Assembly: GCA_021825865.1 (NCBI GenBank)
Contig: JAKAFU010000007.1
Span: 1-62,428 of the forward strand
DNA from: a bacterium
GTDB lineage: Bacteria; SZUA-79; Acidulodesulfobacterales; Acidulodesulfobacteraceae
DNA: 62,428 nucleotides
Reading direction: 5' to 3'
The notes below the pieces were generated by a model, which was given only the letters and a program-made list of their open reading frames with translations, did no database searches and was not told the DNA's origin. The position numbers and the translations under genes are program-made. Positions 251-60,853 of the stretch are shown here, in pieces; within the stretch, counting starts at the first letter, position 1; each line of letters opens with the position of its first letter.

Positions 251-1357
251 ATGAAATTTCATAATATTATTGTACTATATAATTCGTTTTCCGGACGTTT
301 TTCATTTAAAAAACTAAATTTTATTAAATATTATTTAAATAATATGAATATTAAAACAACAATATTTAATCTTACCGAGAAAGAATTTTACGACAAATTA
401 AATAATTCGCATAATAATTTTCTTTCTCCTTATGATGCTATATTTCTTGCAGGAGGAGACGGAAGCCTTAATCATATAATTAATAAATTAGTTTTTACAG
501 ATATCCCTATTGCGCACTTGCCTATGGGGACGGTTAATCTTTTTGCGCTTGAAAACAAAACGCCGTTTAATATAAAAAAAGCATTGGATGATATAATAAA
601 TAAATATAAGCCTATGAAGGTTAATTTAGGAAAAATCAACGATAGATTTTTTTTAATAATGGCAGGTATCGGCTTTGACGCATATGTAGTAAAAGAATTC
701 GAAAACAAACTGCATACGGCTAATGAAAAATCAATAATTTCTAAAAAAAATAATATATTCAAATATATTAACTATATAAACAGCGTTATAAAAACTTTAA
801 AAAAATACGAATTTACAGACCTTGCAGTTAATTTGCTCTATGATGGTAATAATCTTAATAATTTATGCGAATACGCAGCGTCATCAAAGAATACCGCAAA
901 CAACAGGCAAACTTTTATTGAAAAAGCAGACCAGAATTTTGAAAAATGCCGTATCGAAAATCTTTCTGCTAATAAAAATTTATCTGAAAAAAACATCATT
1001 GCAAAACAGGTTATTGCTTCGAACCTTAAATATTACGGCGGACCGTTTAAAGTTTTTCCGAACAGTTCGTGTTTTGACGATAATATTAACGTCAGATTAA
1101 TTAAAAATATAAATAATCGTTTCAATACATTATTGTGCATGGTTAAATCTATAATATTCAGTAAGCAATATATGAAAAATAGCGAAATTTATATGAAAGC
1201 AAAAAAAATAACTATAAACGCTTCAGATTCGGCAAAAAACAGCACGGTATACTGCCAGTGCGACGGTGAATTCATAGGCACTCTCCCCGTTGAAATAACA
1301 AAAGTCAGAAATGCCGTCACCTTACTTATATCGCCTGACGGTGAAATTGTGCTATAA
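251..1357 (+). CDS. Diacylglycerol kinase / lipid kinase family protein (DAGK catalytic domain)
   Basis: The 368-residue protein belongs to the DagK/YegS/sphingosine-kinase-like family, which phosphorylates a lipid hydroxyl with ATP at the inner face of the membrane. The nucleotide-binding signature GGDGS (family: GGDGT) is at residues 68-72, followed by PMGTVNLFA at 91-99. A GFDAYV block near 140 and a CDGEF block near the C terminus match the family. Between them, about residues 200-250 form an Asn/Lys/Ser-rich insertion, and the usual GGG motif is reduced to YYGGPF. The substrate cannot be told. The gene starts at an ATG with no clear ribosome site and ends 9 bases before glcD, so the two are probably cotranscribed. 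Confidence 0.8.
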   Translation: MKFHNIIVLYNSFSGRFSFKKLNFIKYYLNNMNIKTTIFNLTEKEFYDKLNNSHNNFLSPYDAIFLAGGDGSLNHIINKLVFTDIPIAHLPMGTVNLFALENKTPFNIKKALDDIINKYKPMKVNLGKINDRFFLIMAGIGFDAYVVKEFENKLHTANEKSIISKKNNIFKYINYINSVIKTLKKYEFTDLAVNLLYDGNNLNNLCEYAASSKNTANNRQTFIEKADQNFEKCRIENLSANKNLSEKNIIAKQVIASNLKYYGGPFKVFPNSSCFDDNINVRLIKNINNRFNTLLCMVKSIIFSKQYMKNSEIYMKAKKITINASDSAKNSTVYCQCDGEFIGTLPVEITKVRNAVTLLISPDGEIVL

Positions 1358-1366
1358 TAATAAGAT

Positions 1367-2746
1367 ATGGATAAGAAACTTATATATACAGAATTTAAAA
1401 ATATTTTAGGCAGCGACAGGGTTTTAGCGGAGCGCGAAGAGCTTTTATGCTATTCGTACGATGCTACGATAAAAGAGTCTATGCCGGATTTTGTTGTCTT
1501 TCCGTTAAATGAAGTTGAGATATCGGCTATTGTAAAGGCATGCAATAAATTTAATATTCCTGTCGTCGGAAGAGGCGCCGGCAGCGGGTTTTCCGGCGGA
1601 AGCGTTCCTATTAGCGGCGGTGCGGTAGTATCATTTGCTAAAATGACCGGTATTTTAGAATTAGATGAAGAAAACATGTTTATAACCGTAGCTCCGGGTA
1701 TTATCAACGCCGATTTAAAAAATTATCTTGCAGACAAAGGGTATTTTTATCCTCCTGATCCGGCAAGCTTTGAATTTTGCAGCATAGGAGGCAATGTAGC
1801 GGAATGCGCCGGAGGGCCAAAAGCTGTTAAATACGGTGTCACAAAAAATTACGTGTATGGTCTTGAAGTGATAACCGGAAGCGGAGAAATTATTAATACA
1901 GGTTCGAAAACTATAAAAGATGTTGCCGGCTATAATTTGACGCAGCTGTTAGTCGGTTCGGAAGGCACTTTAGGCCTTTTTTCAAAAATAATACTGAAGT
2001 TTTTGCCTAAACCGGAAACATCTAATCTTTTAATTGTTTCTTTTGATAACTCAACTAACGGTTTTAATGCTGCCCTGTCTCTGCTAAAACTTAACAGCAG
2101 ACCTTCAATGCTGGAATTCATGGATAGTTCGTCCATAACTGCCGTTAAAGATTATTTTAAAAACAGTTTTATTGCTCTTAAGGGTGATTTTTTATTTATA
2201 ATTGAAGCAGACGGAAGCGCAGATGAGGTTAAGAGTGCTATTGAACTATACAAAAACAAACTAAGTAAATTTTCTCCGGTTCTGCTGTTTGCCGCCGGAA
2301 ACGATAAAGAAAAGAAAGCTATTATGGATGCAAGGAAGGCTATTTCACCGGCATTAAGAGCGTTCGGAGATTTCAAGATAAACAATGATATTGCCGTGCC
2401 TATAAATAAAATAATACAGATTTTACATGATATCAAGAACATATCAGTTCAATATAATGTTCCCATTATAAATTTTGGCCACTTCGGAGACGGAAATATT
2501 CACGTTAACATAATGTTAGATAAAAGTGATGCGCCAATGCTTGAGCGCGGCGAAAAAGCTAAGTATGACATTATGAAAAAAACGGTTGAACTTGGCGGTA
2601 CTATATCAGGAGAGCATGGGATAGGAACTATGAAGAAAGAATTTATGAATCTAAAATTTGATTCATACTATATCAATTTAATGCGTAATATAAAAAAATC
2701 ATTTGACCCTAATAATATTTTAAATCCCGGCAAAATATTTGATTAA
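1367..2746 (+). CDS. glcD: FAD-linked oxidase, GlcD type (glycolate/D-lactate dehydrogenase flavoprotein subunit)
   Basis: This 459-residue flavoprotein of the vanillyl-alcohol-oxidase/PCMH superfamily oxidises a 2-hydroxyacid (glycolate or D-lactate) to the 2-keto acid. The FAD pyrophosphate loop GRGAGSGFSGG is at residues 68-78. The C-terminal FAD-linked oxidase domain has GHFGDGNIHV near 371 and GGTISGEHGIG near 410, both family hallmarks, and it ends with the usual NPGKIF. Length is normal. It lies directly upstream of the Fe-S subunit gene glcF, but there is no glcE, so this is a two-subunit enzyme. Electrons probably go from FAD to the Fe-S partner and on to quinone. Glycolate and lactate cannot be distinguished from sequence. 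Confidence 0.9.
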   Translation: MDKKLIYTEFKNILGSDRVLAEREELLCYSYDATIKESMPDFVVFPLNEVEISAIVKACNKFNIPVVGRGAGSGFSGGSVPISGGAVVSFAKMTGILELDEENMFITVAPGIINADLKNYLADKGYFYPPDPASFEFCSIGGNVAECAGGPKAVKYGVTKNYVYGLEVITGSGEIINTGSKTIKDVAGYNLTQLLVGSEGTLGLFSKIILKFLPKPETSNLLIVSFDNSTNGFNAALSLLKLNSRPSMLEFMDSSSITAVKDYFKNSFIALKGDFLFIIEADGSADEVKSAIELYKNKLSKFSPVLLFAAGNDKEKKAIMDARKAISPALRAFGDFKINNDIAVPINKIIQILHDIKNISVQYNVPIINFGHFGDGNIHVNIMLDKSDAPMLERGEKAKYDIMKKTVELGGTISGEHGIGTMKKEFMNLKFDSYYINLMRNIKKSFDPNNILNPGKIFD

Positions 2747-2864
2747 ATATTAGTCTGATATTAATTTAATATCTGCACTATAAAATTAATAAATTGATTT
2801 TCACTCAACTGATAAAACTAAGTAAAAGAGACTTGCTATAAAATAATAACTAAAAATAAAAAAA

Positions 2865-4232: not shown

Positions 4233-4240
4233 ACTCGGCT

Positions 4241-4302
4241 GCACATAGCGCATACATGATGAATTGCATTCCTATTAAACTTATACGCTATATGATATGT
4301 GC
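4241..4302. terminator. Possible bidirectional terminator hairpin between convergent glcF and glyA
   Basis: Between the convergent ends of glcF and glyA, GCACATAGCGCATA at 4241-4254 can pair with TATACGCTAT at 4283-4292 and, past a bulge, GTGC at 4299-4302. One mismatch falls in the inner stem. There is no T-tract on either side, so this is a weak terminator candidate supported mainly by its location between two converging operons. Confidence 0.3.
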
Positions 4303-4372
4303 TGTATAAATATAAGTGCTGCATTATTAGTTGAGAATTGAGTCTAATTGAGCCTATACGTTCTTTTAACTC

Positions 4373-5626: not shown

Positions 5627-5684
5627 TTTTGTCCACCTGTATAGTTTATAATTTATATTTATTATTATTTATCTTGTAAATTTA

Positions 5685-18063: not shown

Positions 18064-19764
18064 TTATTCTTTGATATTTTCTATAAATCCATCAAAAACC
18101 TCTTCAAATAAATTACGCATAACATCGCTTTTGATATCCGCATTAATAATGCCGGCATCGCCGCTTTCTATATTATTATTATCAACATTACCGCCGCTGC
18201 CGTCATTTTTCTTATTATTATCGTTATCTTTTTCTTTGTTAATCACATTTTCATGCCGGCGGGCGGCGCTGCCGTTATCATTATCGTTAAGAACAGAATC
18301 CGTCTGTGTATTAAGCCTTGCTGAAAGGTTGTCGTCTATATTGTTAGTAATAGAGTCGATATGTTCAAGAAAATCTTCCCCGTCGGCAACAATGCCGCTC
18401 TGTATTTCATTATCTAACCTATGTTCTCCAATATTCTTCTTATTTGCTTTGCCTGTTTTATGGTTTAAATTATATTCTTTAATATTTTGATTTTCCTGCA
18501 AAATAGAAGCATTATTATTTATGATTTTATTATCGTTAATTACATCGCAAACATTTACAGAATCGTCGTTTGTATCTTTCTGCAAATATTTTCTTTCCGT
18601 ATCCGCCAGTTCAGTTATTGTATTAATTTTTTCTAATTTGTCTATTTTATCTAATTTCTCCAATACCGCCTTTATTTCAATTTTAGACGGTGTGCTTATA
18701 AGCCTGAATATAATAAGCTCCATCATAAGAAGCGGCGAAGAAACACGCTGATATCTGCCGTCTGCTTCAAGAAGAATGTCTATCATATCTAATATTTCAG
18801 CTTCTCCCTTAAGTTCTGTCAGAGGGATAAGCGAAGCGACGTCGGCTTCAAGTATATCGCTTATTATGCTTTTGTAGTTTAATTTCAATACAAGGATATT
18901 CCTTAGAAAAAATGCCAGCTGTCTTATAAATTGCCGTATATCCGTTCCGGCTATGTATATATCGTTGATTATTTTTATAGAATTTTCATAATCTTTTTTA
19001 AAAATATATTCGGTAATTTTTTTTATAGTTTCTTTTCCTGTTACCCCAAGAATATTGCCGACATCTTCTTTTATTTCTTTGCCGTAATAAGATATAACCG
19101 TATCAAAAGCGGAAAGAGCGTCCCGGAGAGAACCGTCGCTTAAGGAGGCTATAGTCATGAGATTTTCGTCTGAAATCTCAATATTTTCTTCTTCCGCAAT
19201 TTTTTTTAATTTTAAATAAATAACGGTGGGAGCAATTCTTTTAAAAGTGAATCTCTGACATCTTGATAATATTGTTTCAGGAACTTTATAAATTTCAGTA
19301 GTTGCAAAAATAAATTTGACGTGCTCCGGCGGTTCTTCAAGAGTTTTTAAAAGCGCATTAAAGGCGCTTTTAGAAAGCATATGCACTTCGTCTATTATAT
19401 ATATCTTATATTTTAAACTTTGCGGAGAATACATTATATTTTCTTTAAGCTCTCGTATATCGTCTACACCGGTATTTGACGCTCCGTCTATTTCAATAAC
19501 ATCGACCGCATTGCCTCCAAGCATTTCGGTGCATGCACGGCAAACGCCGCAAGGATGAGAGGTGGGGCCTTTTTCACAGTTTACAGACCTCGCAAGTATT
19601 CTTGCTATAGAAGTTTTTCCTACGCCTCTGGTCCCCGAAAAAATATAGGCATGCGCTACCCTGTCGGAATCAACGGCGTTTTTAAGCGTTTTAACAATAT
19701 CATCCTGCCCTATGACTTCGTCAAATGTTTTTGGTCTGTATTTTCTGGCTAATACCTGATACAT
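18064..19764 (-). CDS. dnaX: DNA polymerase III subunits gamma and tau
   Basis: DnaX is the clamp-loader ATPase of the replisome. The 566-residue protein has Walker A GTRGVGKTS (44-52), a four-cysteine zinc module (CEKG...CGVCRAC), Walker B/DEVH in IIDEVHMLSKSAFNALL and the sensor-1 region ending with ILSRCQRF. The conserved ATPase and collar domains end near residue 360. The C-terminal 200 residues are almost entirely Asn/Asp/Lys/Ser low complexity except for a short hydrophobic end. I do not see a convincing frameshift signal for a separate gamma form; runs of eight A occur but are expected at this base composition. First gene of the long leftward run. Confidence 0.96.
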   Translation of the reverse strand: MYQVLARKYRPKTFDEVIGQDDIVKTLKNAVDSDRVAHAYIFSGTRGVGKTSIARILARSVNCEKGPTSHPCGVCRACTEMLGGNAVDVIEIDGASNTGVDDIRELKENIMYSPQSLKYKIYIIDEVHMLSKSAFNALLKTLEEPPEHVKFIFATTEIYKVPETILSRCQRFTFKRIAPTVIYLKLKKIAEEENIEISDENLMTIASLSDGSLRDALSAFDTVISYYGKEIKEDVGNILGVTGKETIKKITEYIFKKDYENSIKIINDIYIAGTDIRQFIRQLAFFLRNILVLKLNYKSIISDILEADVASLIPLTELKGEAEILDMIDILLEADGRYQRVSSPLLMMELIIFRLISTPSKIEIKAVLEKLDKIDKLEKINTITELADTERKYLQKDTNDDSVNVCDVINDNKIINNNASILQENQNIKEYNLNHKTGKANKKNIGEHRLDNEIQSGIVADGEDFLEHIDSITNNIDDNLSARLNTQTDSVLNDNDNGSAARRHENVINKEKDNDNNKKNDGSGGNVDNNNIESGDAGIINADIKSDVMRNLFEEVFDGFIENIKE

Positions 19765-20057: not shown

Positions 20058-20978
20058 ATGATATCTGAAAACATACAAAAAATAAATGATGACATAAGAC
20101 GTTCTGCTGCTAAAAGCGGCAGAAACTATCAACATATTACTATTCTTGCCGCTTCAAAAACCAGAAATGCCGATGAAATAATTAAAGCTTGCGAGTCCGG
20201 GATAACTGTTTTCGGAGAAAATTACGTTCAGGAATTTTTAGGTAAATATGATTATTTTAAAAGCATTGCCCAAATAAATCATACAGACTGCGGCAACGGT
20301 AATACCGGTAATAATAGCGGCAGCAGTATCATGCGCAGTGATGCGGGCGGCAGGGGTCTGAACTTTATTAAAAAAGCTGAATATACTGGCAACATTGTTA
20401 ATAACAATAACCTCGACAAGAAAAGCAGCAATAATATTGCCGGCAGTAATAACATCCCATCTGCTTGCATTTTTAAAAATTTAAAATGGCATTTAATAGG
20501 CAAACTGCAAAAAAATAAGGTTAAATACATAGCAAAAAAAGTAAGTATGATTCATTCCGTTGATAGTTTTGAACTTGCCAAACTTATAGATAAATTTTCG
20601 GCAGACGATAATTTTTCCGGAAATAAAATTAAAATCCTTATTGAAATTAATATCGCTGATGAATCAACTAAATCCGGCATCAAGTTAGACGATGCAAAGG
20701 AATTAATTTATAATTTAAACAGCTTAAATAATATTGAACTCAAAGGATTTATGACTATGCCTCCTTATGCCGAAAATCCCGAACAGAATAGAATTTATTT
20801 TAAAGCGCTAAAAGATTTTATCGATTTTGCCAATCAAAAAAATATGTACAAAAATGAACTGACAGAACTTTCTATGGGAACTTCAAACGATTTTGCGGCT
20901 GCAATTGAAGAAGGCGCAACAATCGTCAGGTTGGGAACTATTATTTTCGGCGAAAGAATTTATGCAATCAGACAATAA
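20058..20978 (+). CDS. yggS: YggS/PROSC family pyridoxal-phosphate homeostasis protein, with Asn-rich insertion
   Basis: YggS binds PLP on a lysine without catalysing a known reaction and buffers vitamin B6 pools. Family blocks are all present: ILAASKTR with the PLP lysine, FGENYVQE, HLIGKLQKNK, IHSVDSFELA, LKGFMTMPP and LSMGTSNDF...IRLG-type ending (VRLGTIIFGER). The protein is about 306 residues against the usual 220-235 because of a 65-residue Asn/Gly/Ser-rich insertion between the second and third blocks (about 20271-20471). I chose the ATG at 20058; a GTG at 20028 lies only 12 bases after a TATAAT and would leave almost no leader. It ends 32 bases from the convergent kup gene. Confidence 0.9.
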   Translation: MISENIQKINDDIRRSAAKSGRNYQHITILAASKTRNADEIIKACESGITVFGENYVQEFLGKYDYFKSIAQINHTDCGNGNTGNNSGSSIMRSDAGGRGLNFIKKAEYTGNIVNNNNLDKKSSNNIAGSNNIPSACIFKNLKWHLIGKLQKNKVKYIAKKVSMIHSVDSFELAKLIDKFSADDNFSGNKIKILIEINIADESTKSGIKLDDAKELIYNLNSLNNIELKGFMTMPPYAENPEQNRIYFKALKDFIDFANQKNMYKNELTELSMGTSNDFAAAIEEGATIVRLGTIIFGERIYAIRQ

Positions 20979-34349: not shown

Positions 34350-35399
34350 TTATTTATTTTTAGACAAAATTTCCAGCCCGCCCTTTTCTATAATTTTATG
34401 CGCCAACTTTTTACCCAATTCTTTATATTCTGTTTCGCTTCCGATAATGTCTGCTTCTAAATATTCTCCGTTCATATTGGAAACGAATCCTTTAATATAA
34501 ATCTTGCTTTCGCAGGAAATGCCGTTATCGGACAAATAAGAATAAACCCCGACCGGCGAAGCACAGCCGCAGTCTAATATTCTGATGAAATCTCTTTCGG
34601 CGTACGTTGAAACATAGGTACAATTATCGTTAATAAATTGCAAAACTTCAGCTAATTCTTTATTATTTTTTGAAAATTCAACCGCTATAACCCCTTGACC
34701 GCACTGTGGAATAAAAACAAGCGGGTCTAGATAAAAATCTATCAGCGGGTCTAGTCCCAATCTTATCAGTCCGCTTGAAGAAAGTATAATAGCATCGAAT
34801 ATACCGTCTTTTACCTTTTGAATTCTTGTGTCGATGTTGCCTCTTAAAGGCTCAAAAATTAAATCATCCCTTAATCTTTGCATAAGAATTCTTCTTCTGA
34901 GGCTTGACGTGCCGACTACGGCATTGCGCTTAAGCAAACCGATGGCAGCGGCACATGCAATTGCGTTCTTTTCTGAAATTATACTATTATTTGTACCGAT
35001 TTTAACATCAGCAATATCTTTAGTCCCGTCAGTTCCGTCTTTTAATATAAGGCAATCACGAGGGTCATCACGTTTAAGCGTGCATCCTATAATCAATTCA
35101 TCCGGTATAACCTGAGGCACATCTTTTAAACTGTGCACCGCTATATCTATTTTTCCTGCAAGCAAAGCTTCCTCAATCTCTTTTACAAACAGACCTTTCC
35201 CGCCGAAAGAGCTTAATGAGGCATGCGTTATTTTATCGCCTGATGTTTTAATCGGTATAATTTCTACATCTGCGTCAATGTTTTGTCCTTTAAAAACATT
35301 TAATAATCGGTTTTTAACGGTATTTGCCTGATAAAGAGCAAGTTTACTGCCGCGCGTTCCTAATTTTAGAATATACTTTCTATTATTATTGGATAACAT
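34350..35399 (-). CDS. hemC: Porphobilinogen deaminase (hydroxymethylbilane synthase)
   Basis: HemC joins four porphobilinogens into hydroxymethylbilane on a dipyrromethane cofactor. The 349-residue protein has LKLGTRGSKLALYQA at the start, the VHSLKDVP block, VGTSSLRRR and the cofactor cysteine in LDCGCASPVG. It is about 35 residues longer than usual, mostly in the 105-150 region and the tail. It follows hemA by 16 bases and precedes cobA-hemD. The gene for the preceding step (hemB) is not in this window. Confidence 0.95.
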   Translation of the reverse strand: MLSNNNRKYILKLGTRGSKLALYQANTVKNRLLNVFKGQNIDADVEIIPIKTSGDKITHASLSSFGGKGLFVKEIEEALLAGKIDIAVHSLKDVPQVIPDELIIGCTLKRDDPRDCLILKDGTDGTKDIADVKIGTNNSIISEKNAIACAAAIGLLKRNAVVGTSSLRRRILMQRLRDDLIFEPLRGNIDTRIQKVKDGIFDAIILSSSGLIRLGLDPLIDFYLDPLVFIPQCGQGVIAVEFSKNNKELAEVLQFINDNCTYVSTYAERDFIRILDCGCASPVGVYSYLSDNGISCESKIYIKGFVSNMNGEYLEADIIGSETEYKELGKKLAHKIIEKGGLEILSKNK

Positions 35400-35415: not shown

Positions 35416-36885
35416 TTATTTAGCTTTATTATTATTCAATTGAATAATTTTATTATTGTAATAAGGGGCGCTGTTTGCGTTATTTGCATTATCGCCGTCT
35501 GTTCCATCTTCTTCTGCGTTTAATATTTCTTTTTCAATCTCTTTGTTTTCTTGAGATATACTGCCAATATTTATATCCAGGTCAAAAAGTATTTTGGCTG
35601 CCTCCATAAGATTTAACCCGTTAAAATCAACCTCTGCTCTTTTAATTTTTGTAATAGGTTCGTGAAGAATCTTATTTGTGATAGAATTTACTATTGCTTC
35701 TATATTCTCATCTTTATTATTTATATATTTACACAATTCAGCCGAAAGAATACCGTTAACTTTATTTCTTAAATTTACAATTATCGGAACGACATTAAGA
35801 GAGTTTTTCCAATTTATAAAGTCTTCCGCTTCTTCGTCTATTATCTTTTCTGCAAAATCTGCCTCCTGCTGCCTTACGTCAAGATTATTTTCAATAATTT
35901 TGCCGATATCGTCAATATCAAAAAGATATACATTGGAAATTTTATTTATTTCAGGGTCAATATTGCGCGGAACGGATATATCTATTAAAAAAATCGGCCT
36001 CTGCTTGCGCATTTTAATAATAGGCTGAATATCTTCGTATTTTATGATATATGAATCTGCTCCTGTGGAACATAATACTATATCGGCTACCGTCAATATT
36101 TTATAATATTCGTTAAAGTCAATAATCGTCTTAGAATCGTATCCGTCTAATTCTTCCGCAAGTTTAACAGCCTTTTCTCTTGTTCTGTTTGTAATGAATA
36201 TTTCACTGACTCCCTGCTTTATAAAATGTTTGGCTGCAATTTTCCCCATCTCTCCCGTTCCAAGCAGTAAAACCTTTTTATTACTTATATCGTTAAATAT
36301 TTTTTTAGCGAGCTCCACGGCGGCATAGCTTATCGAAACCGGCGCTGCTGCTATTTTTGTTTCTGTTCTTACCCTTTTAGCACAGTAAAAAGACTTATGA
36401 AAAAGTTTGTTTAAAATTAAACCGGTATTTTTAAATTCGCAGGCTTCATTATACGATTCTTTAATCTGGCCTAAAATTTGCGGTTCGCCTATTATCATAG
36501 AATCTAAGCTTGATGCAACTTTAAAAAAATGAAGTATTGCTTCGAAATTTTTATAGGTATAAAACATATTCCGCAATTCTTCATTTCCAAAATTATCACC
36601 GAATAAATATTTAATTATAATATTTTTTATGACTGCTCCATAGTCTATATTTTTATTGTCGCCCGAAGAATTACCGGATACCGCGAATATAAACTCGGCT
36701 CTGTTGCATGTAGAAATTATTGCGGATTCTTGAATTAACTGCTTTCCGGTTTCTTCATTAAATAAACGTTTGATATTAAAGATAAATTCATTCCGCAATT
36801 CTTTTGTAAGAATTTTCTTCGATACTTCTTCTCTGTGAATTATGTCCGAAGATTTATGATTTAATCCGGTAATAATAATTTCCAT
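35416..36885 (-). CDS. hemA: Glutamyl-tRNA reductase
   Basis: HemA reduces glutamyl-tRNA to glutamate-1-semialdehyde, committing to tetrapyrrole synthesis by the C5 route. The 489-residue protein has GLNHKSSDI (7-15), the catalytic Cys60 in ISTCNRAEF and the NADPH-binding LLGTGEMGKIAA. The dimerisation domain ends near 445. The last 45 residues, Glu/Asn/Asp-rich, are extra to the family. It follows a hemX-like gene, a pairing known from many bacteria in which HemX modulates HemA levels. The semialdehyde aminotransferase gene (hemL) is not in the window. Confidence 0.95.
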   Translation of the reverse strand: MEIIITGLNHKSSDIIHREEVSKKILTKELRNEFIFNIKRLFNEETGKQLIQESAIISTCNRAEFIFAVSGNSSGDNKNIDYGAVIKNIIIKYLFGDNFGNEELRNMFYTYKNFEAILHFFKVASSLDSMIIGEPQILGQIKESYNEACEFKNTGLILNKLFHKSFYCAKRVRTETKIAAAPVSISYAAVELAKKIFNDISNKKVLLLGTGEMGKIAAKHFIKQGVSEIFITNRTREKAVKLAEELDGYDSKTIIDFNEYYKILTVADIVLCSTGADSYIIKYEDIQPIIKMRKQRPIFLIDISVPRNIDPEINKISNVYLFDIDDIGKIIENNLDVRQQEADFAEKIIDEEAEDFINWKNSLNVVPIIVNLRNKVNGILSAELCKYINNKDENIEAIVNSITNKILHEPITKIKRAEVDFNGLNLMEAAKILFDLDINIGSISQENKEIEKEILNAEEDGTDGDNANNANSAPYYNNKIIQLNNNKAK

Positions 36886-37080: not shown

Positions 37081-37968
37081 TTATTTTAATCCGTGAAATT
37101 CAGGAAACAAATACAAGGAAAAACCCACTGTCAAAATAATCATAATAAAACCTGCTATACTCAGCATAGCCGCTTTATTACCCCTTAAACCTTTTGCGAC
37201 GCGTTCGTGCAGCAAAATTGCGTATATAAGCCATGTAATCAGTGAAATAATTTCAATCGGTTTTACCGAAGCCACCGATTTAAACAAAGCGCTTGAAAGA
37301 TATATGCCTATTACTATGCCTGCGGTTAAAGCAGGAAATCCTAATTTTAGACACTGATAATTCATATTATCCAACAATTCTAAATTGTACCCCTTACCTA
37401 AATTAAAGTAATTAAAATTCCTGCGAAAATTAAACAATCTGCCTTCATTTTTGCCGCTGCTGTTTTTATTGCCGCTATTTATAATTTTCAAATTCTTTTT
37501 AAGCTTTAGTTTTCTTTCCTGAAGAATATATATTAAAGATAAAATAAATGCAAGGGCGAACAGCGAATCACCCGTTAATATAAGAACAATATGCGCTATT
37601 AAAAGCCATGAATCTACTTTTAATATAGCGTTAATATCCATGGAAGGCGCAAAATAAGATACTAATAATGCCGCAATGACTATCGGGGTTGCATAAATAA
37701 CAATATATTTAGCTTTGTATAAAAGTTCAAAAAGAATAACTATAAGCATGAGTATCCACGAATTGAAAAAAATCATCAAATCGATAGGTATAATCATTGT
37801 AAAATGATATTTGTCCAAACCTGCAATAACAATTACACTCTGAATAACAAAAGTGAAATAGATTAAAAAAATAAAGGAATTATATGGATTATTTTTCTTA
37901 ATATAAAGAACTGCATAAGATAAAAAAAATAATAAAATCGGGATAAAATAATAATTTTTAAAAATCAT
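37081..37968 (-). CDS. HemX/CcsA-like cytochrome c assembly family membrane protein
   Basis: The 295-residue integral membrane protein has about eight hydrophobic segments. Near the C terminus SVKPIEIISLITWLIYAILL and a HERVAKGLRGNKAAMLSI block match the HemX/CcsA/CcmC family. The strict WWD heme-handling motif of true cytochrome c maturation proteins is not visible, which favours HemX. A Lys/Asn-rich cytoplasmic loop (about 152-190) is longer than usual. The ATG overlaps the stop of met8 by four bases (ATGA), so they are translationally coupled, and hemA follows. A role in controlling HemA or in heme export is inferred from context. Confidence 0.78.
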   Translation of the reverse strand: MIFKNYYFIPILLFFLSYAVLYIKKNNPYNSFIFLIYFTFVIQSVIVIAGLDKYHFTMIIPIDLMIFFNSWILMLIVILFELLYKAKYIVIYATPIVIAALLVSYFAPSMDINAILKVDSWLLIAHIVLILTGDSLFALAFILSLIYILQERKLKLKKNLKIINSGNKNSSGKNEGRLFNFRRNFNYFNLGKGYNLELLDNMNYQCLKLGFPALTAGIVIGIYLSSALFKSVASVKPIEIISLITWLIYAILLHERVAKGLRGNKAAMLSIAGFIMIILTVGFSLYLFPEFHGLK

Positions 37969-43962: not shown

Positions 43963-45015
43963 TTATCCCCCTATTTTATTCATATAAATATTACCGTTAC
44001 CGTCTGTTATAATATTACCGTTATGAAGATTATCGGTTTCATTTTTATTGTTTTTATTATTGAATAAATGCGTCTGCCGTTTTTTTTGTAATATCTTTAA
44101 TAAATATTCATAGATATCTTCGTCAGATGCATTGCTGTTTAAAATTTCTTTTATATCATATTCTTCATCATAAAAAAGACATAGCCGCAATTTGCCGGAT
44201 GCAGTTATTCTCAGTCTGTTACAATCATTACAGAAATGTTCGGATAACGGGCTGATAAACCCTATTACGGCCTTATTATTTTTTTGAGCTGAAAAATAAT
44301 ATTCTTTGCTCACTGAACAATCATCAACCTTCTTAGGTTCAAAATCTTTATATTCTATTTTAATTTTATCTATCAGTTCTTTTGAAGTAATTGCCCGACT
44401 TATATTTTGCCCTATAGGCATATATTCTATAAATCTTAAATTAAGCTCATTTTTTACTGCAAAATTTATAAAATTGAGCAACTCTTTGTCGTTATCGCCG
44501 CGCATCAGCACCGTATTTATTTTAATAGGTTTAAAACCTGCAGCCTTTGCAATATTGATACCCTTGAGAACGGAATCAAGATTACCGCCGCGCGTCAATT
44601 TGCTGAAAATCTCATTGTCTAATGAATCAAGACTTATATTTATTCTTTTAAGTCCTGCATTATATAAATCCTGCGCATACCTATCAAGAAGAATGCCGTT
44701 AGTAGTCATGGCTATATCTTTTATGCCGCCGATATTGTTCAATTTTTCAATAAAATTGACGACACCTTTTCTAACAAGGGGCTCTCCGCCTGTAATCCTT
44801 ATTTTATTAACGCCGTAACCGGCCAGTACACTGACAAATCTTAAAATTTCTTCATATGACAGCATCTCGCTGTGACTGAGCAATTGCACCCCGTCCTCCG
44901 GCATGCAGTATACGCATCTTAAGTTGCATCTGTCGGTTAAAGAAATTCTTAAATAGGTAATTTGCCTTCCAAAACCGTCAATTAAAAGTTTAGCCGGTTT
45001 ATTATTAATATTCAT
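43963..45015 (-). CDS. moaA: GTP 3',8-cyclase (molybdenum cofactor synthesis), with Asn-rich insertion before the C terminus
   Basis: MoaA rearranges GTP to 3',8-cyclo-7,8-dihydro-GTP, the first step of molybdopterin synthesis. The 350-residue radical SAM enzyme has cluster 1 at C30, C34 and C37 (CNLRCVYC) and the C-terminal cluster in FCNDCNRLR plus the LCLF cysteine. The family ends in a Gly-Gly tail that enters the active site; here the tail (MNKIGG) is kept. Between it and the preceding QTHLF block lies a 25-residue Asn/Gly-rich insertion. It is three bases downstream of the PBP gene. No other moa or moe gene is in the window. Confidence 0.94.
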   Translation of the reverse strand: MNINNKPAKLLIDGFGRQITYLRISLTDRCNLRCVYCMPEDGVQLLSHSEMLSYEEILRFVSVLAGYGVNKIRITGGEPLVRKGVVNFIEKLNNIGGIKDIAMTTNGILLDRYAQDLYNAGLKRINISLDSLDNEIFSKLTRGGNLDSVLKGINIAKAAGFKPIKINTVLMRGDNDKELLNFINFAVKNELNLRFIEYMPIGQNISRAITSKELIDKIKIEYKDFEPKKVDDCSVSKEYYFSAQKNNKAVIGFISPLSEHFCNDCNRLRITASGKLRLCLFYDEEYDIKEILNSNASDEDIYEYLLKILQKKRQTHLFNNKNNKNETDNLHNGNIITDGNGNIYMNKIGG

Positions 45016-45017
45016 AA

Positions 45018-49215: not shown

Positions 49216-50586
49216 ATGAAAAATCACATAATCGGCACGAGCGGAGATATTTGTTCCGATAATAATTTAATTAATTTATTCTACTCTTACAGCAGAATTT
49301 TTTCACAGCTTAAAAATGTTCGGCAAAGCGGTATAAAAAAAATATTTCAAAAAATTATCGGCTCATATGTATCATCGGGTGATAATTGCGGCGATATAGC
49401 AAAAATTGCAGAAATTCTAAAAACTGAGGCGGCGAAAACATTTAAAATTAATAAAAACGATTTTGACAGATTACAAAACATTACTGAAAATGAAATTAAT
49501 ATACTGGATAAATTAAATATTGTACGTTTTTTAAATCTAAGCGATAACAATACGATACCGATGTTTTTATATTATTATAATGCAGATAAACAAGAAAACG
49601 CTAATAAAAATAATAAAAAAACGGTATCTGACTTATCTTTGTCATCGTTAAACTTAAATATCAATTTTATACGCGAAAAAATATATAACGGTAAAACAAA
49701 TAACAGTAAATTTGTATTTATTGCATCTTCAAGATATAAAAACGCCGGTATATTCAAATTTAACGATGACTTAATATGCGGTTTAAATAACTGCCTCAAT
49801 TTTAATAAATTGACCGGAGAGCAGAATATAGGAGAGCATAATATAGAAGAAAACACGAAAACGCAATTGATATACACTTTATATTTTATAGGGACTGCGA
49901 GTGAAGCAGAAAACGGTCTGATAAAAAATTATGCTAAAATTTTTAAACATAAAAATAAAATTATATTGGCGCCCCATTACCCAATAACCTATTTCTTGGA
50001 AAATTTCCCGCAATATTCAATATTTTCAGCTATTTCTGCCATAAACCCTTTTGAAACAAATTTTAAATATTGTTATACTTACAGAAATAATCTAATATCA
50101 AATATAACATCGGAAATGATTGTGCTATATTTATCAAAAAACAGTTCTTTAAATAATCTTATTAAAAAATTTGAAAAATCAAATAAAAATGTTAATATCA
50201 TAGAAAAGTTTATTGAAAATAATAAAATTGCGGCAGCAGGCAAAAATACAAATATTACAAACGCAAAAAACGCTCAAGCAGTAAATATTTTATATTCCGA
50301 TGCCGATACAGATAAAATAGACAGAAATGAAAATATATATAATTTATATAATTTGCGGTATATTGAAAAAGAAATATTAAATTTTCTATGTTATAGCAAT
50401 AAAATAACAGATAATATCAATATAACAGTTGACGATATAATTAATAATCTGACAAAGATTGTTCAGCAGAGAAATCCGGATAATGAAATAAATAAAATTA
50501 AAAAAATTATTCTTCAGTCAATTTCTTTAATGGAGATTAAAGGCGTTATAAAAAGAGAAATCTCAGGGGTAATAAAAAAAATATGA
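49216..50586 (+). CDS. Degenerate DprA-like protein
   Basis: The 456-residue Asn/Lys-rich protein is not obviously conserved, but its layout follows DprA (Smf). The N-terminal region ends with ILDKLNIVRFLNLSDNN, resembling the pre-Rossmann segment. A strand-loop FVFIASSRYKNAG stands where DprA has VGSR. FIGTASEAENG stands where SGLARGID would be, YTYRNNLISNITSEMIVLYL where RNRIIAGLS is, and a C-terminal winged-helix-like ISLMEIKGVIKREISG ends the protein. The central SGxAxGIDxxAH motif is lost and Asn-rich insertions are present. It overlaps topA by four bases (ATGA), and dprA-topA is a classical gene pair. DNA binding is possible; canonical RecA loading is doubtful. Confidence 0.55.
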   Translation: MKNHIIGTSGDICSDNNLINLFYSYSRIFSQLKNVRQSGIKKIFQKIIGSYVSSGDNCGDIAKIAEILKTEAAKTFKINKNDFDRLQNITENEINILDKLNIVRFLNLSDNNTIPMFLYYYNADKQENANKNNKKTVSDLSLSSLNLNINFIREKIYNGKTNNSKFVFIASSRYKNAGIFKFNDDLICGLNNCLNFNKLTGEQNIGEHNIEENTKTQLIYTLYFIGTASEAENGLIKNYAKIFKHKNKIILAPHYPITYFLENFPQYSIFSAISAINPFETNFKYCYTYRNNLISNITSEMIVLYLSKNSSLNNLIKKFEKSNKNVNIIEKFIENNKIAAAGKNTNITNAKNAQAVNILYSDADTDKIDRNENIYNLYNLRYIEKEILNFLCYSNKITDNINITVDDIINNLTKIVQQRNPDNEINKIKKIILQSISLMEIKGVIKREISGVIKKI

Positions 50587-53132
50587 AAAATTTAGTTATA
50601 GTGGAATCTCCCTCGAAAGCTAATACAATAAATAAGTATCTCGGCGATAATTATTCTGTTAAGGCTACTATGGGGCATATAAAAGATTTGCCTAAAAGTA
50701 AAATAGGCGTCGATATTGAACACGGATTCGAACCGTTTTACGAAATTATAAAAGGCAAAGAAAAAACTACGGAAGAAATAAAAAAATATGCTAAAGCCGC
50801 AGATACCGTTTTCCTTGCAGCCGACCCCGACAGGGAAGGGGAAGCAATCGCATGGAATGTAAAAGAAATTATAGACACCATAAAAGGCAAAAAACCTGCC
50901 GTTAAAAGAGTTCTCTTCAATGAAATAACAAAAGACGCCGTCAACGAAGCAATCAAAAATCCGACAGAACTCAATAAATCCATGTTTGAATCTCAGAAAG
51001 CCAGGAGGATATTAGACAGATTAGTCGGCTATAATTTGAGCCCTTTTTTATGGAAAAAGGTCGGCAGAGGACTTTCGGCCGGAAGGGTCCAATCGGTTAC
51101 GCTGTATTTAATAGTTGAAAGGGAAAAAGAAATTAATAATTTTGTCAAAGAAGAATATTGGACGCTTTCGGCAGTTTTTTTAATCAAAAACAGTGCAGGG
51201 AATTCATTTACTATTACTTCCGAACTTGCAAAAATAAATAACAAAGAACCTAAAATAAAAAATGCAGAAGAAGCTGAAAATATTAAAAATTCATTATTAA
51301 ATATAAATGAATATAAAATTTACAGTATCGGCAAAAAGTCCGTCAAAAGGAATTCTCCCGCGCCTTTAATTACAAGTACTATGCAGCAGGAAGCTTTCAA
51401 AACTATAAGGTTTTCCGTTAAAAAGACAATGAATATCGCACAGAAACTTTATGAAGGGATTGAACTGGGAAAAGTGGAAAGTATCGGAAAAGGCAAGCTG
51501 GGACTTACAGGCCTTATAACTTATATGAGAACAGATTCTACAAGAATATCCGATGCTGCTGCCAAAGCCGCAAATGAGCTTATTGTTAAAGAATTCGGGA
51601 AAGACTTTGCAAAAAACGGGACGGCTGTTATATCAAAAAAACAAAAAACAAAAAAAATTCAGGATGCTCACGAAGCAATAAGACCTTCAAATGTTTTTTT
51701 GACGCCTGAAAAAATAAAAAATTATTTATCTGCCGATGAATATAAACTTTACAAACTCATATGGACGTATTTTGTCGCTTCGCAGATGTCACAGAGCATT
51801 TATGACCAGTATTCCATAGTAATAAGCGGCAAAGCGGCTGAATCCTCCGGCAAAAATAGCATAGCAAACAGCACCGCTAATACTGATAGCATTAAAAAAA
51901 TTAAAAATAAAAAAAGTAAAATTGACGGGAAAACGGCTGCAGATGATACAAATGATAATACCGAAAATATCGCAGCAGATGAAAATGAATATTTATTTAA
52001 AACAGCGGAAAGTGTACTTAAATTTGAAGGATATTTAAAAGTACTTAACAAACTGCATGAACATCAAAAGGAGGATTTAGATTCAAATTACGATTCAGGC
52101 GCAGAACAGGATTCAAATACCGACAACTCTGCGAACAGCAGCACATATAATAATAAAAAGTCTGAAAATAAAAATAATAAAACCGCATATAAAGAACATG
52201 ACCCAAAATATATTTCAAAAATATTTGAGGTGCTAAAAGAAAACGACTCCGCTTTTATTCAAGATTTAAATCTTGCGCAGCATTTCACGGCACCGCCGCC
52301 AAGATATACCGAAGCCTCTCTCGTTAAAGCATTAGATGAAAATGGCGTAGGGAGACCGTCCACTTACCAGACGATTATATCAAATATTAAAAATAAAGAT
52401 TATGTTGAAACGGAAACCGAAACAAGTTCCGTAGCTAAATTTAAACCGACAGAGCTTGGGATTGTCGTATCCGATATTCTAAAAGAAGGTTTTCCCGATA
52501 TTTTAGACATCAAATTCACTGCAAATATGGAAAATAAACTTGATGAAATAGAAAACGGAACATTGGATAAAAATACGCTGCTGAGGGGATTTTACGATAA
52601 GCTAATTGAAAGATTAGCGGTTGCCGGAAAAGATATTGCAAGTGTAAAAGGCACGTCTATTCCTACAGATATAGTCTGTGATAAATGCGGAAAACCTATG
52701 GTCGTAAAATTCGGCAGATTCGGAAAATTTCTGGCGTGCAGCGGTTATCCCGAATGCAAGAATACAAGAGAGCTTTCTTCAGGTACTGAAAATAATATAA
52801 CAGGAGCACAGAATTTAAGCAGCGCCGACGGTTCCGAAAACAGTGAGAATTCCGCTCATATACGTCAGGCCGAAGAACCCGCCGTACTTTGCGAAAAATG
52901 CGGAAAACCTATGGTGCTTAAATCCGGCAGATTCGGAAAATTTCTGGCGTGCAGCGGTTATCCCGAATGCAAGAATACAAAACCTGTGCCTCTGAAATCT
53001 AATATACCCTGCCCAAACGAATGCGGAGGCTATCTTGTTACGAAAAAAACAAAAACAGGAAGAAGGTTCTACGGATGTTCAAATTATCCAAAATGCAATT
53101 ATGTAACATGGAAATTACCAAAAACAGAGTAG
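50583..53132 (+). CDS. topA: DNA topoisomerase I
   Basis: TopA relaxes negative supercoils by single-strand passage. The 849-residue protein has a Toprim domain (VIVESPSKANTI at 5-16, DPDREGEAIAW at 81-91) and the catalytic Tyr314 in LITYMRTDS. Three C-terminal four-cysteine zinc modules end it, the first two nearly identical in protein and DNA. Two insertions of about 50 residues each, rich in Asn, Ser, Asp and Lys (about 51836-51988 and 52060-52200), interrupt the region before AQHFTAPPPRYTEASLV. The ATG overlaps the stop of the DprA-like gene, giving coupled translation. Confidence 0.95.
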   Translation: MKNLVIVESPSKANTINKYLGDNYSVKATMGHIKDLPKSKIGVDIEHGFEPFYEIIKGKEKTTEEIKKYAKAADTVFLAADPDREGEAIAWNVKEIIDTIKGKKPAVKRVLFNEITKDAVNEAIKNPTELNKSMFESQKARRILDRLVGYNLSPFLWKKVGRGLSAGRVQSVTLYLIVEREKEINNFVKEEYWTLSAVFLIKNSAGNSFTITSELAKINNKEPKIKNAEEAENIKNSLLNINEYKIYSIGKKSVKRNSPAPLITSTMQQEAFKTIRFSVKKTMNIAQKLYEGIELGKVESIGKGKLGLTGLITYMRTDSTRISDAAAKAANELIVKEFGKDFAKNGTAVISKKQKTKKIQDAHEAIRPSNVFLTPEKIKNYLSADEYKLYKLIWTYFVASQMSQSIYDQYSIVISGKAAESSGKNSIANSTANTDSIKKIKNKKSKIDGKTAADDTNDNTENIAADENEYLFKTAESVLKFEGYLKVLNKLHEHQKEDLDSNYDSGAEQDSNTDNSANSSTYNNKKSENKNNKTAYKEHDPKYISKIFEVLKENDSAFIQDLNLAQHFTAPPPRYTEASLVKALDENGVGRPSTYQTIISNIKNKDYVETETETSSVAKFKPTELGIVVSDILKEGFPDILDIKFTANMENKLDEIENGTLDKNTLLRGFYDKLIERLAVAGKDIASVKGTSIPTDIVCDKCGKPMVVKFGRFGKFLACSGYPECKNTRELSSGTENNITGAQNLSSADGSENSENSAHIRQAEEPAVLCEKCGKPMVLKSGRFGKFLACSGYPECKNTKPVPLKSNIPCPNECGGYLVTKKTKTGRRFYGCSNYPKCNYVTWKLPKTE
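52712..52980 (+). repeat. 56-bp identical repeat encoding two TopA zinc modules
   Basis: Bases 52712-52767 and 52925-52980 are identical (56 of 56), starting CGGCAGATTCGGAAAATTTC. They code for the same segment of successive zinc-ribbon modules, and the sequence just upstream of each (CGGAAAACCTATGGT) is also shared. Identity at synonymous positions points to a recent duplication or ongoing gene conversion. Confidence 0.9.
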
Positions 53133-54246: not shown

Positions 54247-54945
54247 TTATATTAAGTTATATCTTTTGAGCAGAGGGATTAATGTTTCTATGCATAACCC
54301 CTCTGCGTTTTTATATGACCCCGAATATGATTCTACTATATTGTGTGAATCCTGAATGCCGTAAGCTCCTGCTTTATCGAAAGGCTTGCTTTCGTGTATG
54401 TAGCCGTATATTTCTTCATCGGATAATTTTTTTATTTTAACCTCCGTCTTATCATATACCGACTCATAAAGCCGTATATTTTTATTAATCAGCGCCGCGC
54501 CGGTGTAAACATTGTGAGTGTTGCCGGAAAGCATACTGAGCATATTAAAAGCGGAGACGGCATCTTTCGGTTTGCCTAAAGATAAGCCGCGGTTAGCTCT
54601 CTGGGGCAAAGTGTCTGGCTCAGGCTCGGACGAAGACAATGATGCAGCAGAAGGAGACAGCGGAGAAGACGGCACCGATGAATAATGAGCAGCACCGATA
54701 CTTAAATCATCAAAAATGACGATAGTGTCCGAACCTATGATAAAACAGTCTGGATAACTGCTTTCAATACTTTTGGCTTTATCAAGGGCAAGATTTTTCG
54801 CAAATTCAGAAGGCTCAATTTCGCCTAAGTATTCAGGTTCATTGATAATTTTATGTTCTATCGGTATAAAATCAATTTTATATTCTTTTAGAATATCTGA
54901 GCGGCGCGGTGAAGACGACGCTAAAATTATGCACGGTTTAGGCAT
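54247..54945 (-). CDS. maf: Maf family nucleotide pyrophosphatase, with Ser/Pro-rich insertion
   Basis: Maf/YhdE proteins hydrolyse non-canonical or modified nucleoside triphosphates and are linked to septum control. The family signature is complete: LASSSPRRSDIL at the start, the DTIV block with GSD, YTGAAL, DKTEV and FDKAGAYGIQD. A Ser/Pro/Glu-rich insertion (about 54582-54708) splits the region after DTIV and is visibly richer in G+C than its surroundings. I chose the ATG at 54945, which puts the start where the family begins; a TTG at 54996 would add 17 residues, and neither has a clear SD sequence. Confidence 0.9.
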   Translation of the reverse strand: MPKPCIILASSSPRRSDILKEYKIDFIPIEHKIINEPEYLGEIEPSEFAKNLALDKAKSIESSYPDCFIIGSDTIVIFDDLSIGAAHYSSVPSSPLSPSAASLSSSEPEPDTLPQRANRGLSLGKPKDAVSAFNMLSMLSGNTHNVYTGAALINKNIRLYESVYDKTEVKIKKLSDEEIYGYIHESKPFDKAGAYGIQDSHNIVESYSGSYKNAEGLCIETLIPLLKRYNLI

Positions 54946-55129
54946 TTTAAAAATATTTTCGATTGCACGCAGCACGTCAATTGCAGTATGTGGCAATCTT
55001 AATATTGTATTTTAATAAATTTTAATTAAATTAAAAATAAATTAAATTAAATACGAACCATAATTTATTGCGCTTTTGTACAGCGCGCTAAAACACAAAT
55101 TTTTTACAAATATTATTATTTTATTATTG

Positions 55130-56134
55130 CTAATTCCCAAGTTCCTTAGAGCGCAAATAAGCGGCATTAACAGCGGAATCTATAACATATTTAATTCTTC
55201 CCTCTTCCAGTTTGCTTAAACCGTATGCGGTAGTGCCTCCGGGAGAAGTCACTAAATCCTTAAGGTCTTTAGTAGAGTATTTGCTAAATTCCTCGGAACT
55301 CAAAAGCTCTCCTGAACCGAGTATCGTTTGTACGGCTAAAATAGATGCCATGTTTCGAGGAAGTCCCAATTTGACAGCAGCTTCAATAAAACCTTCAGCG
55401 ATTAAAAATAAATAAGCCGGACCGCTTCCGCTGACGGCGGTTACTGCATCAAAATATTTTTCTTCAATAGTCAAGACCTTTGAAGACATTTCGAGAATGT
55501 TTTTCACTTTGCTGTAATCCTCTTCCTTCACGGCATTATTATAACAAACGGCGCTCATACCTTTTCCGGCGAGTGAATTGATATTCGGCATAATTCTAAT
55601 AATTTTAGGATTATATTTGCCGCGGAATTTTTCATAAAATAATCTGTTGATGGCTTCAATCTTCACGCCCCCTGCTATTGACACAAAAATAAGATCTTTA
55701 ATTTTACTGCCGGAAGAATTATCGGAATTTTTACCGTGAGCCTCTCCGCCTGCGTCGTAGCCGTTGTTTGCGAAATTTGCATCAGTTACATTATTATCCG
55801 ATATATTTATCGTATTTGCTTTATTAATATTATCATCGCCGCTGCTGTCAAAAATTTCATGAAACATATGCAGAATAGTATCTGCCGCAATGTTTAAGAC
55901 ATCTGCTACCACATTAGGTTTTACTGCTATAAAAATAATATCTGAATTTTCGATTACCTCGCCTACGCTGTTTAAAATTGCAATATTAAAATTACTTTTC
56001 ATAAATTCCCGCCTTTCTAATGACGGGTCATATATTGCTACGGCTATGTCTTCAGTATTTTTATTATTAATTATTCCCTTTATTAAACCGAATGCCATAT
56101 TCCCTGCTCCGATAAAACCTATTTTAAGCCCCAT
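55130..56134 (-). CDS. proC: Pyrroline-5-carboxylate reductase, with Asn-rich insertion
   Basis: ProC reduces pyrroline-5-carboxylate to proline. The 334-residue protein opens with the NAD(P) motif IGFIGAGNMAFGLIKG and has IAVKPNVV, SIAGGV, MPNINSLAGKGM, AVSGSGPAYLF and VTSPGGTTAYG, all family hallmarks. It is some 60 residues longer than usual because of an Asn/Asp/Gly/Ser-rich insertion at about residues 94-146 (55696-55855), between two strands of the N-terminal domain. AGGAG precedes the ATG. It lies 184 bases upstream of the maf start in the same direction. Confidence 0.95.
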   Translation of the reverse strand: MGLKIGFIGAGNMAFGLIKGIINNKNTEDIAVAIYDPSLERREFMKSNFNIAILNSVGEVIENSDIIFIAVKPNVVADVLNIAADTILHMFHEIFDSSGDDNINKANTINISDNNVTDANFANNGYDAGGEAHGKNSDNSSGSKIKDLIFVSIAGGVKIEAINRLFYEKFRGKYNPKIIRIMPNINSLAGKGMSAVCYNNAVKEEDYSKVKNILEMSSKVLTIEEKYFDAVTAVSGSGPAYLFLIAEGFIEAAVKLGLPRNMASILAVQTILGSGELLSSEEFSKYSTKDLKDLVTSPGGTTAYGLSKLEEGRIKYVIDSAVNAAYLRSKELGN

Positions 56135-57329: not shown

Positions 57330-57540
57330 TTATAATCATAAATATATTAAATATAATAAATATATAAATAAATGCAAATTCAGCAATATTATGTATATTT
57401 AAACTTAACTTATATTAATTAATAGAAAACTAATAGAAACTAATAAAAAACATATTCTCATAAATATTACAATGCAGTTATTATATTACAGTTATAACTA
57501 TTAATAAAAAAAATAATTAAAAAATAATAAAAAAATAAAA

Positions 57541-58101: not shown

Positions 58102-58208
58102 TTTGTAGTTTTTATGTTTTAAATCGACTTGCTTGGATTATGTTAATTATTATTATGAAGGTTTTTACATAAATATAAATACTTTTAATATTAATAAGGG
58201 TTAATCTA

Positions 58209-59372: not shown

Positions 59373-59482
59373 AATAGAATTGCTTAGCGTCACAATATGA
59401 TTATGATTAATATATAAATGATTTCCGTTGTTAATTCATTAATTTATTTAATATTAACATGATATACATATAAATTACATAA

Positions 59483-59542
59483 ACAGTGTCTGTTATTAAT
59501 TTTTAAAGACATTTTTAAGACAATCGAATCTGTCTCTAATTT
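59483..59542 (-). repeat. Dispersed repeat, two decayed copies in the sucC-sucD gap
   Basis: On the minus strand AAATTAGAGACAGATT (59542-59527) and AATTAATAACAGACACTG (59502-59485) both resemble the AATTAGGGACGGACACC core found at 19816, 19942 and 22952-23022. They lie in the unusually large gap between sucC and sucD. The match is about 13 of 16 positions each, so this is a probable but decayed family member. Confidence 0.4.
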
Positions 59543-59578
59543 AAATAAATTATTATTATAAGGCAAGGTATAAAATTT

Positions 59579-60457
59579 ATGAGCATTCTGATTAATAAAG
59601 AAACGTCGGTTCTCGTTCAGGGCATTACCGGCAAGGAAGGTTCTTTTCATACTTTGAAATGTTTAGAATACGGTACTAAAATCGCAGCAGGCGTGACCCC
59701 TTTTAAAGGCGGTTCGCTGTTCAACGATTCAATTCCGGTATTCAATACGGTAGCGGAAGCTAAGTCTAATATTAAAATAGATGCGACCGTTATTTTTGTT
59801 CCGGCAATATTCGCATCTTCAAGCGTAATTGAAGCGGTAGAATCTGAAATTCCGCTTATAGTGTGCATAACCGAAGGTATACCTACAATTGATATGATGA
59901 ATGTGAAATCCGCATTGAGGGGTTCAAGTTCAGTTATGATAGGTCCTAATTGCCCAGGGATAATAACGGCGGATGAATGTAAAATCGGAATTATGCCCGG
60001 CTTCATTCACAAAAAGGGCAAAATTGCGGTGTTATCGCGAAGCGGAACTTTAACATATGAAGCCGTTAATCAATTGACTGAAGCAGGGTTGGGGGAAACC
60101 ACCTGTATAGGCATAGGAGGAGACCCCATAATCGGCTCTTCTTTCTTAACCTTTTTAAAAATGTTCGAGAACGATCCTGAAACCGAAGGCGTCGTTTTAA
60201 TTGGAGAAATAGGCGGAACGCAGGAGGAAGAGGCATCCGAGTATGTAAAAAATTATATGAAAAAGCCTGTCGTCGGATTTATTGCAGGAAAAACAGCCCC
60301 CGAAGGAAAAAGAATGGGGCACGCAGGCGCAATAATTTCAGGAGGAAAAGGAACGGCTTCGGAAAAATTGAAAATAATGAAAAAAAACGGAATTCATATC
60401 GCTGAAAATCCGTCTGTTATCGCTGAAACAATGCTCAAGGCATTAAAAAAGCATTAA
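59579..60457 (+). CDS. sucD: Succinyl-CoA synthetase, alpha subunit
   Basis: The 292-residue alpha subunit binds CoA and carries the phosphohistidine. It has [13 protein letters not shown], the CoA-domain block [22 protein letters not shown] and the active histidine in [19 protein letters not shown] lies upstream of the ATG. It pairs with SucC upstream and precedes the ferredoxin subunit of 2-oxoglutarate oxidoreductase by 42 bases, which ties the two reactions around succinyl-CoA together. Confidence 0.96.
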
Positions 60458-60499
60458 GATAAACTTATTTAATTAATTTATTAATTTAAGGAGGCATGT

Positions 60500-60853
60500 A
60501 TGCCTAATCAGGATAATCAACATAACGCTAACAATAACCCCAATAACTTGAAGTTAAATCAATCCGCAGATGTAACTATTCCTAACTACAAGTCTTGCGA
60601 CTCAATTGAAATTACCGTTAAACCTGTAAACAAGCTTACAATCAAACAATACACCGGTATGGGTAAAAAAGAAAGAGTGCAGATAGATATAGTAGTTAAC
60701 TATTGCAAGGGATGCGAATTGTGCGTCGCATTCTGCCCTGAAGAAGTTTTAGTCATGAATAAAGAAACCGCGGAAGTGATAAATATTTCCAGATGTACAA
60801 AGTGTAACATCTGTGAGTATCTTTGTCCGGATTTTTCTATATCTGTAGAATAG
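60500..60853 (+). CDS. korD: 2-oxoglutarate:ferredoxin oxidoreductase, ferredoxin-like (delta) subunit
   Basis: The 117-residue protein has two 4Fe-4S motifs, CKGCELCVAFCP and CTKCNICEYLCP, in its C-terminal half. This is the delta/ferredoxin subunit of 2-oxoacid:ferredoxin oxidoreductases. The first 60 residues are Asn-rich and not part of the usual subunit. AAGGAGG lies five bases before the ATG. It is followed 13 bases later by korA, so the two are coexpressed. Electrons would enter or leave through these clusters. Confidence 0.88.
   Translation: MPNQDNQHNANNNPNNLKLNQSADVTIPNYKSCDSIEITVKPVNKLTIKQYTGMGKKERVQIDIVVNYCKGCELCVAFCPEEVLVMNKETAEVINISRCTKCNICEYLCPDFSISVE

Follow-up and report, generated by a model that had tools for sequence, protein, structure and literature searches.

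The genus of Acidulodesulfobacteraceae from which this stretch comes, a group of uncultured bacteria of acid-mine habitats, carries asparagine (Asn)-rich insertions within many of its conserved proteins, and the phenomenon is real, genome-wide and genus-wide. The stretch (the window; 62,428 nucleotides (nt)) is contig C57 of G000, a 1.91-Mb metagenome-assembled genome; with its PolA as query against named genomes, the nearest named relative was Candidatus Acididesulfobacter diazotrophicus AP1 (G001; contig SGBB01000001.1). Our reading, to which we give a probability of roughly 0.7, is that the inserts are loop extensions, disordered and exposed to solvent, gained on the branch leading to the genus and still turning over, with no specific function required to account for them. 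We compared 30 genomes of one phylum and one family: seven species of the genus itself (G000-G006) and 23 genomes from five other genera (G007-G029). Proteins of the window were aligned to syntenic orthologs from the genus and from up to seven genomes of other genera, and genome-wide comparisons were based on sampled genome stretches.

The inserts are clearest in YggS, PolA, TopA, Maf and ProC, five of the ten proteins in which a preliminary description of the window had placed insertions or tails. Within the window these inserts measure 16-69 amino acids (aa), while outgroups from the other genera have 0-7 aa at the same sites; in all five proteins (5/5), the NCBIfam match is split into at least two stretches and the break falls at the insert. 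YggS carries 69 aa (20265..20471, + strand) between conserved blocks 1 and 2, that is, between the positions equivalent to residues 72 and 76 of E. coli YggS (outgroups 0-2 aa, genus 11-47 aa). PolA has one insert of 65 aa following the 5'-3' exonuclease domain (28604..28798, - strand; outgroups 0-6 aa, genus 34-65 aa) and a second of 30 aa (28247..28336, - strand; 0-3 and 17-30 aa, respectively). TopA has three: 46 aa (51840..51977, + strand; outgroups 0-5 aa), 32 aa (52053..52148, + strand; outgroups 0-7 aa, genus 26-35 aa) and 16 aa (52794..52841, + strand; outgroups 1-4 aa). The first two lie between two matches to E. coli TopA, of which one ends at residue 418 and the next starts at 450, and the third lies between zinc-ribbon repeats (position 738). 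Outgroups have 0 aa at the sites of both the 40-aa Maf insert (54589..54708, - strand) and the 51-aa ProC insert (55712..55864, - strand), the latter flanked by a helix and a strand that belong to the nucleotide-binding fold. In a ProC model of moderate confidence, residues 94-143 score below 50 in the predicted local distance difference test (pLDDT) and have hardly any secondary structure, so that this insert is predicted to be disordered.

The preliminary description had named, as a result that would speak against it, the same inserts at the same sites and lengths in close relatives of other base composition. The sites turn out to be fixed across the genus and absent as inserts from the other genera, and both the lengths and the sequences differ between species, with inserts sometimes lost. 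TopA insert 1 illustrates this: it is present in G000, G004, G001 and G006, and missing with identical borders in G002, G003 and G005. This cuts across the nucleotide tree of the genus, (G002,(G004,(G001,G006)),(G005,(G000,G003))), and implies repeated loss, allele exchange or the sorting of an old polymorphism. At the Maf site, the insert is serine (Ser)/proline-rich in G000, N-rich (Asn-rich) and of unlike sequence in G006, and reduced to 5 residues in G001; the site is thus permissive and its sequence not conserved.

The load of inserts is strongly directional. Counting inserts of at least 12 aa between reciprocal-best orthologs, we found 53 in G002 (in 39/242 proteins) vs 10 in G007 (sign test 3e-8), and 34 in G000 (in 24/77 proteins) vs 4 in the outgroup (6e-7). 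Between pairs of outgroups from other genera, inserts were few and symmetric. The share of the genus's conserved proteins that bear inserts is about 16-31%. The hosts elsewhere in G000 include ArgS, PolX, ThiD, RecJ, HolB, IspE and a GGDEF protein, and those in G002 PurH, radical-SAM enzymes, a nucleoside phosphorylase, a UvrD-type helicase and an SMC-like protein. Proteins with inserts show lower conservation than the others (median identity 55% vs 68%) and are longer, which fits tolerance of the inserts.

In composition, the inserts share a profile across many unrelated families. Asn makes up 19-20% of their residues vs 6.5-7% in the hosts and the proteome, about a threefold excess; Ser and aspartate (Asp) are also raised, lysine (Lys) and most hydrophobic residues are lowered, and the inserts carry about -3.7 net charges for every 100 residues. 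The preliminary description had them rich in Asn, Ser, Asp and Lys, which is right for the first three; Lys is depleted relative to the hosts, and the Maf insert of G000 departs from the pattern. Nor do AAT/AAC triplet runs, proposed there as part of the coding basis, contribute more than a minor share. Homocodon pairs in the inserts of the window are only slightly in excess (36 vs 27 after codon shuffling, p=0.04), homocodon triples in the same inserts show no enrichment over codon-shuffled controls, and no long Asn homopolymers from AAT repeats were seen, the longest Asn run in the window's inserts being 4. AAT/AAC expansion is therefore not the main visible process, and simple triplet slippage as a sufficient cause was rejected on the homocodon counts.

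Could base composition by itself produce Asn-rich stretches, as a consequence of AT-rich coding DNA? The guanine plus cytosine (GC) content of the genus does lie below that of its sister genera (see also PMC6776010, Table 1), and G006, the lowest-GC sample of the genus, has the most N-rich sequence. However, N-rich windows occur in 40/203 own proteins vs 43/553 in 39 AT-rich bacterial contigs of lower mean GC (30%; p=1e-5), and in 81/463 proteins of the genus vs 24/352 of the sister genera (p=5e-6), well above chance in both comparisons. In the genus, whose GC is 30-35%, such windows hold 2.0-6.6% of the residues; the sister genera have 0.3-1.7% and the AT-rich controls 1.3%. The inserts themselves, at 35-37% GC, are no AT-richer than their flanks or hosts, so AT-richness is not the direct driver that the preliminary description supposed. 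Base composition also gives no account of added residues that relatives do not have, and we consider it an improbable explanation. As a separate observation, intergenic GC in the window is 19.6%, compared with about 40% at fourfold-degenerate sites in genes, an unusually wide gap.

To follow how insert length changes, we placed gaps at the DNA level between close species pairs and collected indels of at least 6 nt (46 pairwise events, some counted in more than one pair). Of these, 45/46 are multiples of three, the sole exception lying close to where the YggS reading frame begins. Direct repeats totalling at least 5 nt flank 28% of the indels vs 1.3% at shifted control positions, an excess over chance of the kind that slippage-derived tandem repeats leave. 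The repeat-associated units span 6-48 nt: in PolA, ATAGCG adjoins ATAGCGATAGCG; the open reading frame (ORF) before topA has a 15-nt unit, and TopA a 48-nt unit with a 10-nt repeat. The inserts retain a weak periodicity of 9 and 18 nt that the flanks lack. An earlier test for tandem duplication on protein-placed gaps gave almost nothing, a negative that we put down to gap placement, as the repeats are visible at the DNA level. Slippage tolerated in surface loops, as first suggested, thus holds up insofar as the indels are in frame, often lie at short direct repeats and favour less conserved hosts. At matched divergence, the genus has fixed about 2-3 times as many indels per unit of nonsynonymous divergence (dN) as its sister genera; in events per thousand codons per unit dN, the pair G000-G004 scores 67 and three pairs from genus g3 score 22-31.

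In-frame insertion in many unrelated coding genes is also the mark of the Rickettsia palindromic elements, a dispersed family of homologous repeats, and selfish elements of this type might have seeded the inserts. Unlike those elements, the inserts are mutually unrelated and not palindromic. Each insert in the window is single-copy in its whole own genome and in the sampled stretches, where other matches are short and AT-rich; long inverted repeats are missing, the longest arm being 10 nt and several inserts having none. A selfish origin is accordingly very hard to credit.

The inserts are very probably translated, judging from their pattern of substitution, and they are weakly constrained at the amino-acid level. 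Across eight species pairs, the ratio of nonsynonymous to synonymous change (omega) is 0.31-0.52 in inserts, compared with 0.10-0.17 in host and other sites; neutral codons, simulated with the observed substitution pattern and put through the same estimation method, give 0.71 (0.59-0.89). Both statements follow from this position between the host and neutral values. Random codons at fourfold-site composition would yield 45% hydrophobic residues and 4% Asn, far from the roughly 20% of each in the inserts. The idea of tolerated filler therefore needs amending: a purely neutral view is wrong, with omega at about half the neutral expectation, and the pattern is best explained by weak purifying selection that keeps a hydrophilic coil. 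These values also bear on whether the inserts are removed from RNA, skipped in translation or simply assembly errors. The genomes are metagenome assemblies, which lends this some initial plausibility, but omega below neutral is expected only with translation, the indels are multiples of three, and the inserts lie within open frames. The same sites recur in seven separate assemblies, which excludes the assembly artefact that the preliminary description had asked to be checked. The chance that any of these three explains the inserts is minimal.

A more serious alternative is a selected function, in which hydrophilic coils are favoured as such, for example because they drive condensates or keep enzymes solvated where conditions are acid, metal-rich or salty. 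Omega values below those of the neutral simulation would fit, as would a composition that is uniform over unrelated hosts and net negative, and many of the hosts act in replication and repair. The literature also offers one clear precedent for bacterial housekeeping proteins with lineage-specific inserts: in Deinococcus radiodurans, housekeeping and repair enzymes have hydrophilic low-complexity regions that are missing in homologues (PMC2904767). The two cases share a bacterial setting and hydrophilic, disordered stretches in housekeeping enzymes. In the Deinococcus case, however, those studied are N- and C-terminal tails, for which a desiccation role was proposed (PMC2904767), whereas the inserts of this genus are internal, Asn-rich and different between co-occurring sister genera. 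This last point tells against function. A sister genus of the same artificial acid-mine system has no such inserts (G007 vs G002, if, as we infer, G007 is AP3 and G002 is AP2; PMC6776010), nor does one from the same sample series (LSA5.bin80 with LSA5.bin79), and acid or salt adaptation, raised speculatively at the outset, fails as a sufficient cause. In addition, sequence and length are poorly conserved per site, with outright loss in some cases, such as TopA insert 1 in three species, and the inserts favour less conserved hosts. We therefore judge a selected function unlikely. The more specific idea that the Asn-rich loops are a selected trait and act as a common physical tag, for example by helping enzymes of replication, repair and biosynthesis to stay solvated or to condense, is slightly less likely again.

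The repair genes of the group provide a possible background. Profile searches for MutS (PF00488) and MutL (PF01119) found no match in 30/30 genomes, including 99-100% complete ones, while the same profiles match in 11/14 control genomes; a phylum-wide search yields only these 30 genomes. The whole lineage thus appears to lack canonical mismatch repair. NucS-type domains gave partial matches in three of the 30 genomes and none in the genus itself. Throughout the family (G000-G029), no genome has a DnaQ-like or SbcD-like match that reaches the curated cut-off, and many genomes have none at all; these proofreading or repair genes look divergent or absent in the family. Loss of a repair gene specific to the genus was considered as a cause and rejected: MutS, MutL and NucS fail to set the genus apart, and DnaQ-like and SbcD-like matches are weak family-wide. 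Canonical MutS mainly handles loops of a few nt. Given this, and a background common to the phylum, the absence of mismatch repair would have a modest causal role in the inserts.

Taken together, loop extension at permissive sites would proceed as follows. Loop length would change through replication slippage or slipped-strand tandem duplication, which adds or removes 6-48 nt in frame where direct repeats occur, a step visible directly in recent small events. The frame is kept and amino acids change only about half as fast as under neutrality, so that a hydrophilic coil of Asn, Ser, Asp, Gly and Ala persists while the copies diverge until their repeat origin is hidden. The genus would also make or tolerate more indels than its sisters, on the phylum-wide background without MutS or MutL. 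Several points weigh against this account. Most large indels (81-153 nt) have little flanking repeat, so how the biggest inserts arose is not directly seen. Omega below neutral leaves space for function. The ProC model has moderate confidence only (mean pLDDT 63.9). Finally, mismatch-repair loss is phylum-wide and does not mark out the genus, and our searches for a genus-specific mutational cause (NucS, DnaQ-like, SbcD-like) found none.

Other proteins of the window add to the picture with differing clarity. Beyond those listed in the preliminary description, inserts are found in HemC (23 aa, 34950..35018, - strand; 32-33 aa in G001 and G006, outgroups 4-9 aa) and, more weakly given outgroup values of 2-16 aa, in a HemX-like protein (21 aa, 37411..37473, - strand). 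Alignment to orthologs places two more, of 34 aa (49582..49683, + strand) and 23 aa (49771..49839, + strand), in the ORF just 5' of topA. This ORF (49216-50586) is itself 15% Asn, has no NCBIfam match, and shares 26-30% identity with sister-genus ORFs in the same place; its position suggests that it is dprA. Four of the remaining listed proteins are less convincing. The DAG-kinase-like protein has a polar stretch (residues ~205-246; 863..988, + strand) that does fall in a gap between the Pfam domains DAGK_cat and YegS_C, that gap being its only basis. The HemA C-terminal tail (35419..35574, - strand) is weak, being mostly common to outgroups, as is that of MoaA (43966..44064, - strand), where outgroup tails are similarly variable; the Asn-rich N-terminal extension of KorD (60500..60574, + strand) is also weak, at 15-18 aa vs 0-12 aa in outgroups. 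The C-terminal low-complexity tail of DnaX (18067..18633, - strand) is longer than in outgroups (open frames of 569-638 aa in the genus vs 484-552 aa), but this is the gamma/tau tail, whose length normally varies. Elsewhere in the window, an ATPase-like ORF (25121-26440) has no ortholog in any compared syntenic stretch, including those of the genus, and is possibly a recent acquisition.

Close parallels to these inserts lie outside bacteria. In Plasmodium falciparum, Asn-rich inserts are lineage-specific and AT content alone does not explain them (PMC3749963). As in that parasite and in Dictyostelium, the inserts described here are Asn-rich and disordered, occur in unrelated families, and mark a lineage in a way that AT content does not predict. 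They differ from those of Plasmodium in their bacterial host, in the shortness of their Asn runs and the minor part played by triplet runs, and in the size of the inserts (16-69 aa in the window) and of the duplication units (6-48 nt). Like prokaryotic low-complexity regions in general, they are compositionally biased, hydrophilic stretches; however, a survey of those regions reports Asn as heavily under-represented (PMC6821194), and it is the most enriched residue here, which makes the genus atypical.

The debate over whether the Asn-rich inserts of Plasmodium are useless or selected rests on a single lineage that is hard to work with genetically. The bacterial genus described here is small and has such inserts at known sites in well-studied enzymes, beside co-occurring sister genera that have none. 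For TopA, PolA, YggS, ProC and Maf, and also ArgS, RecJ, HolB, ThiD and IspE, activity with and without the insert is testable enzyme by enzyme, and the gain and loss of disordered regions is traceable among close species. The genus also runs counter to the report that Asn is rare in low-complexity regions of prokaryotes, with a habit of Asn-rich padding for which malaria parasites and slime moulds are the main known examples.

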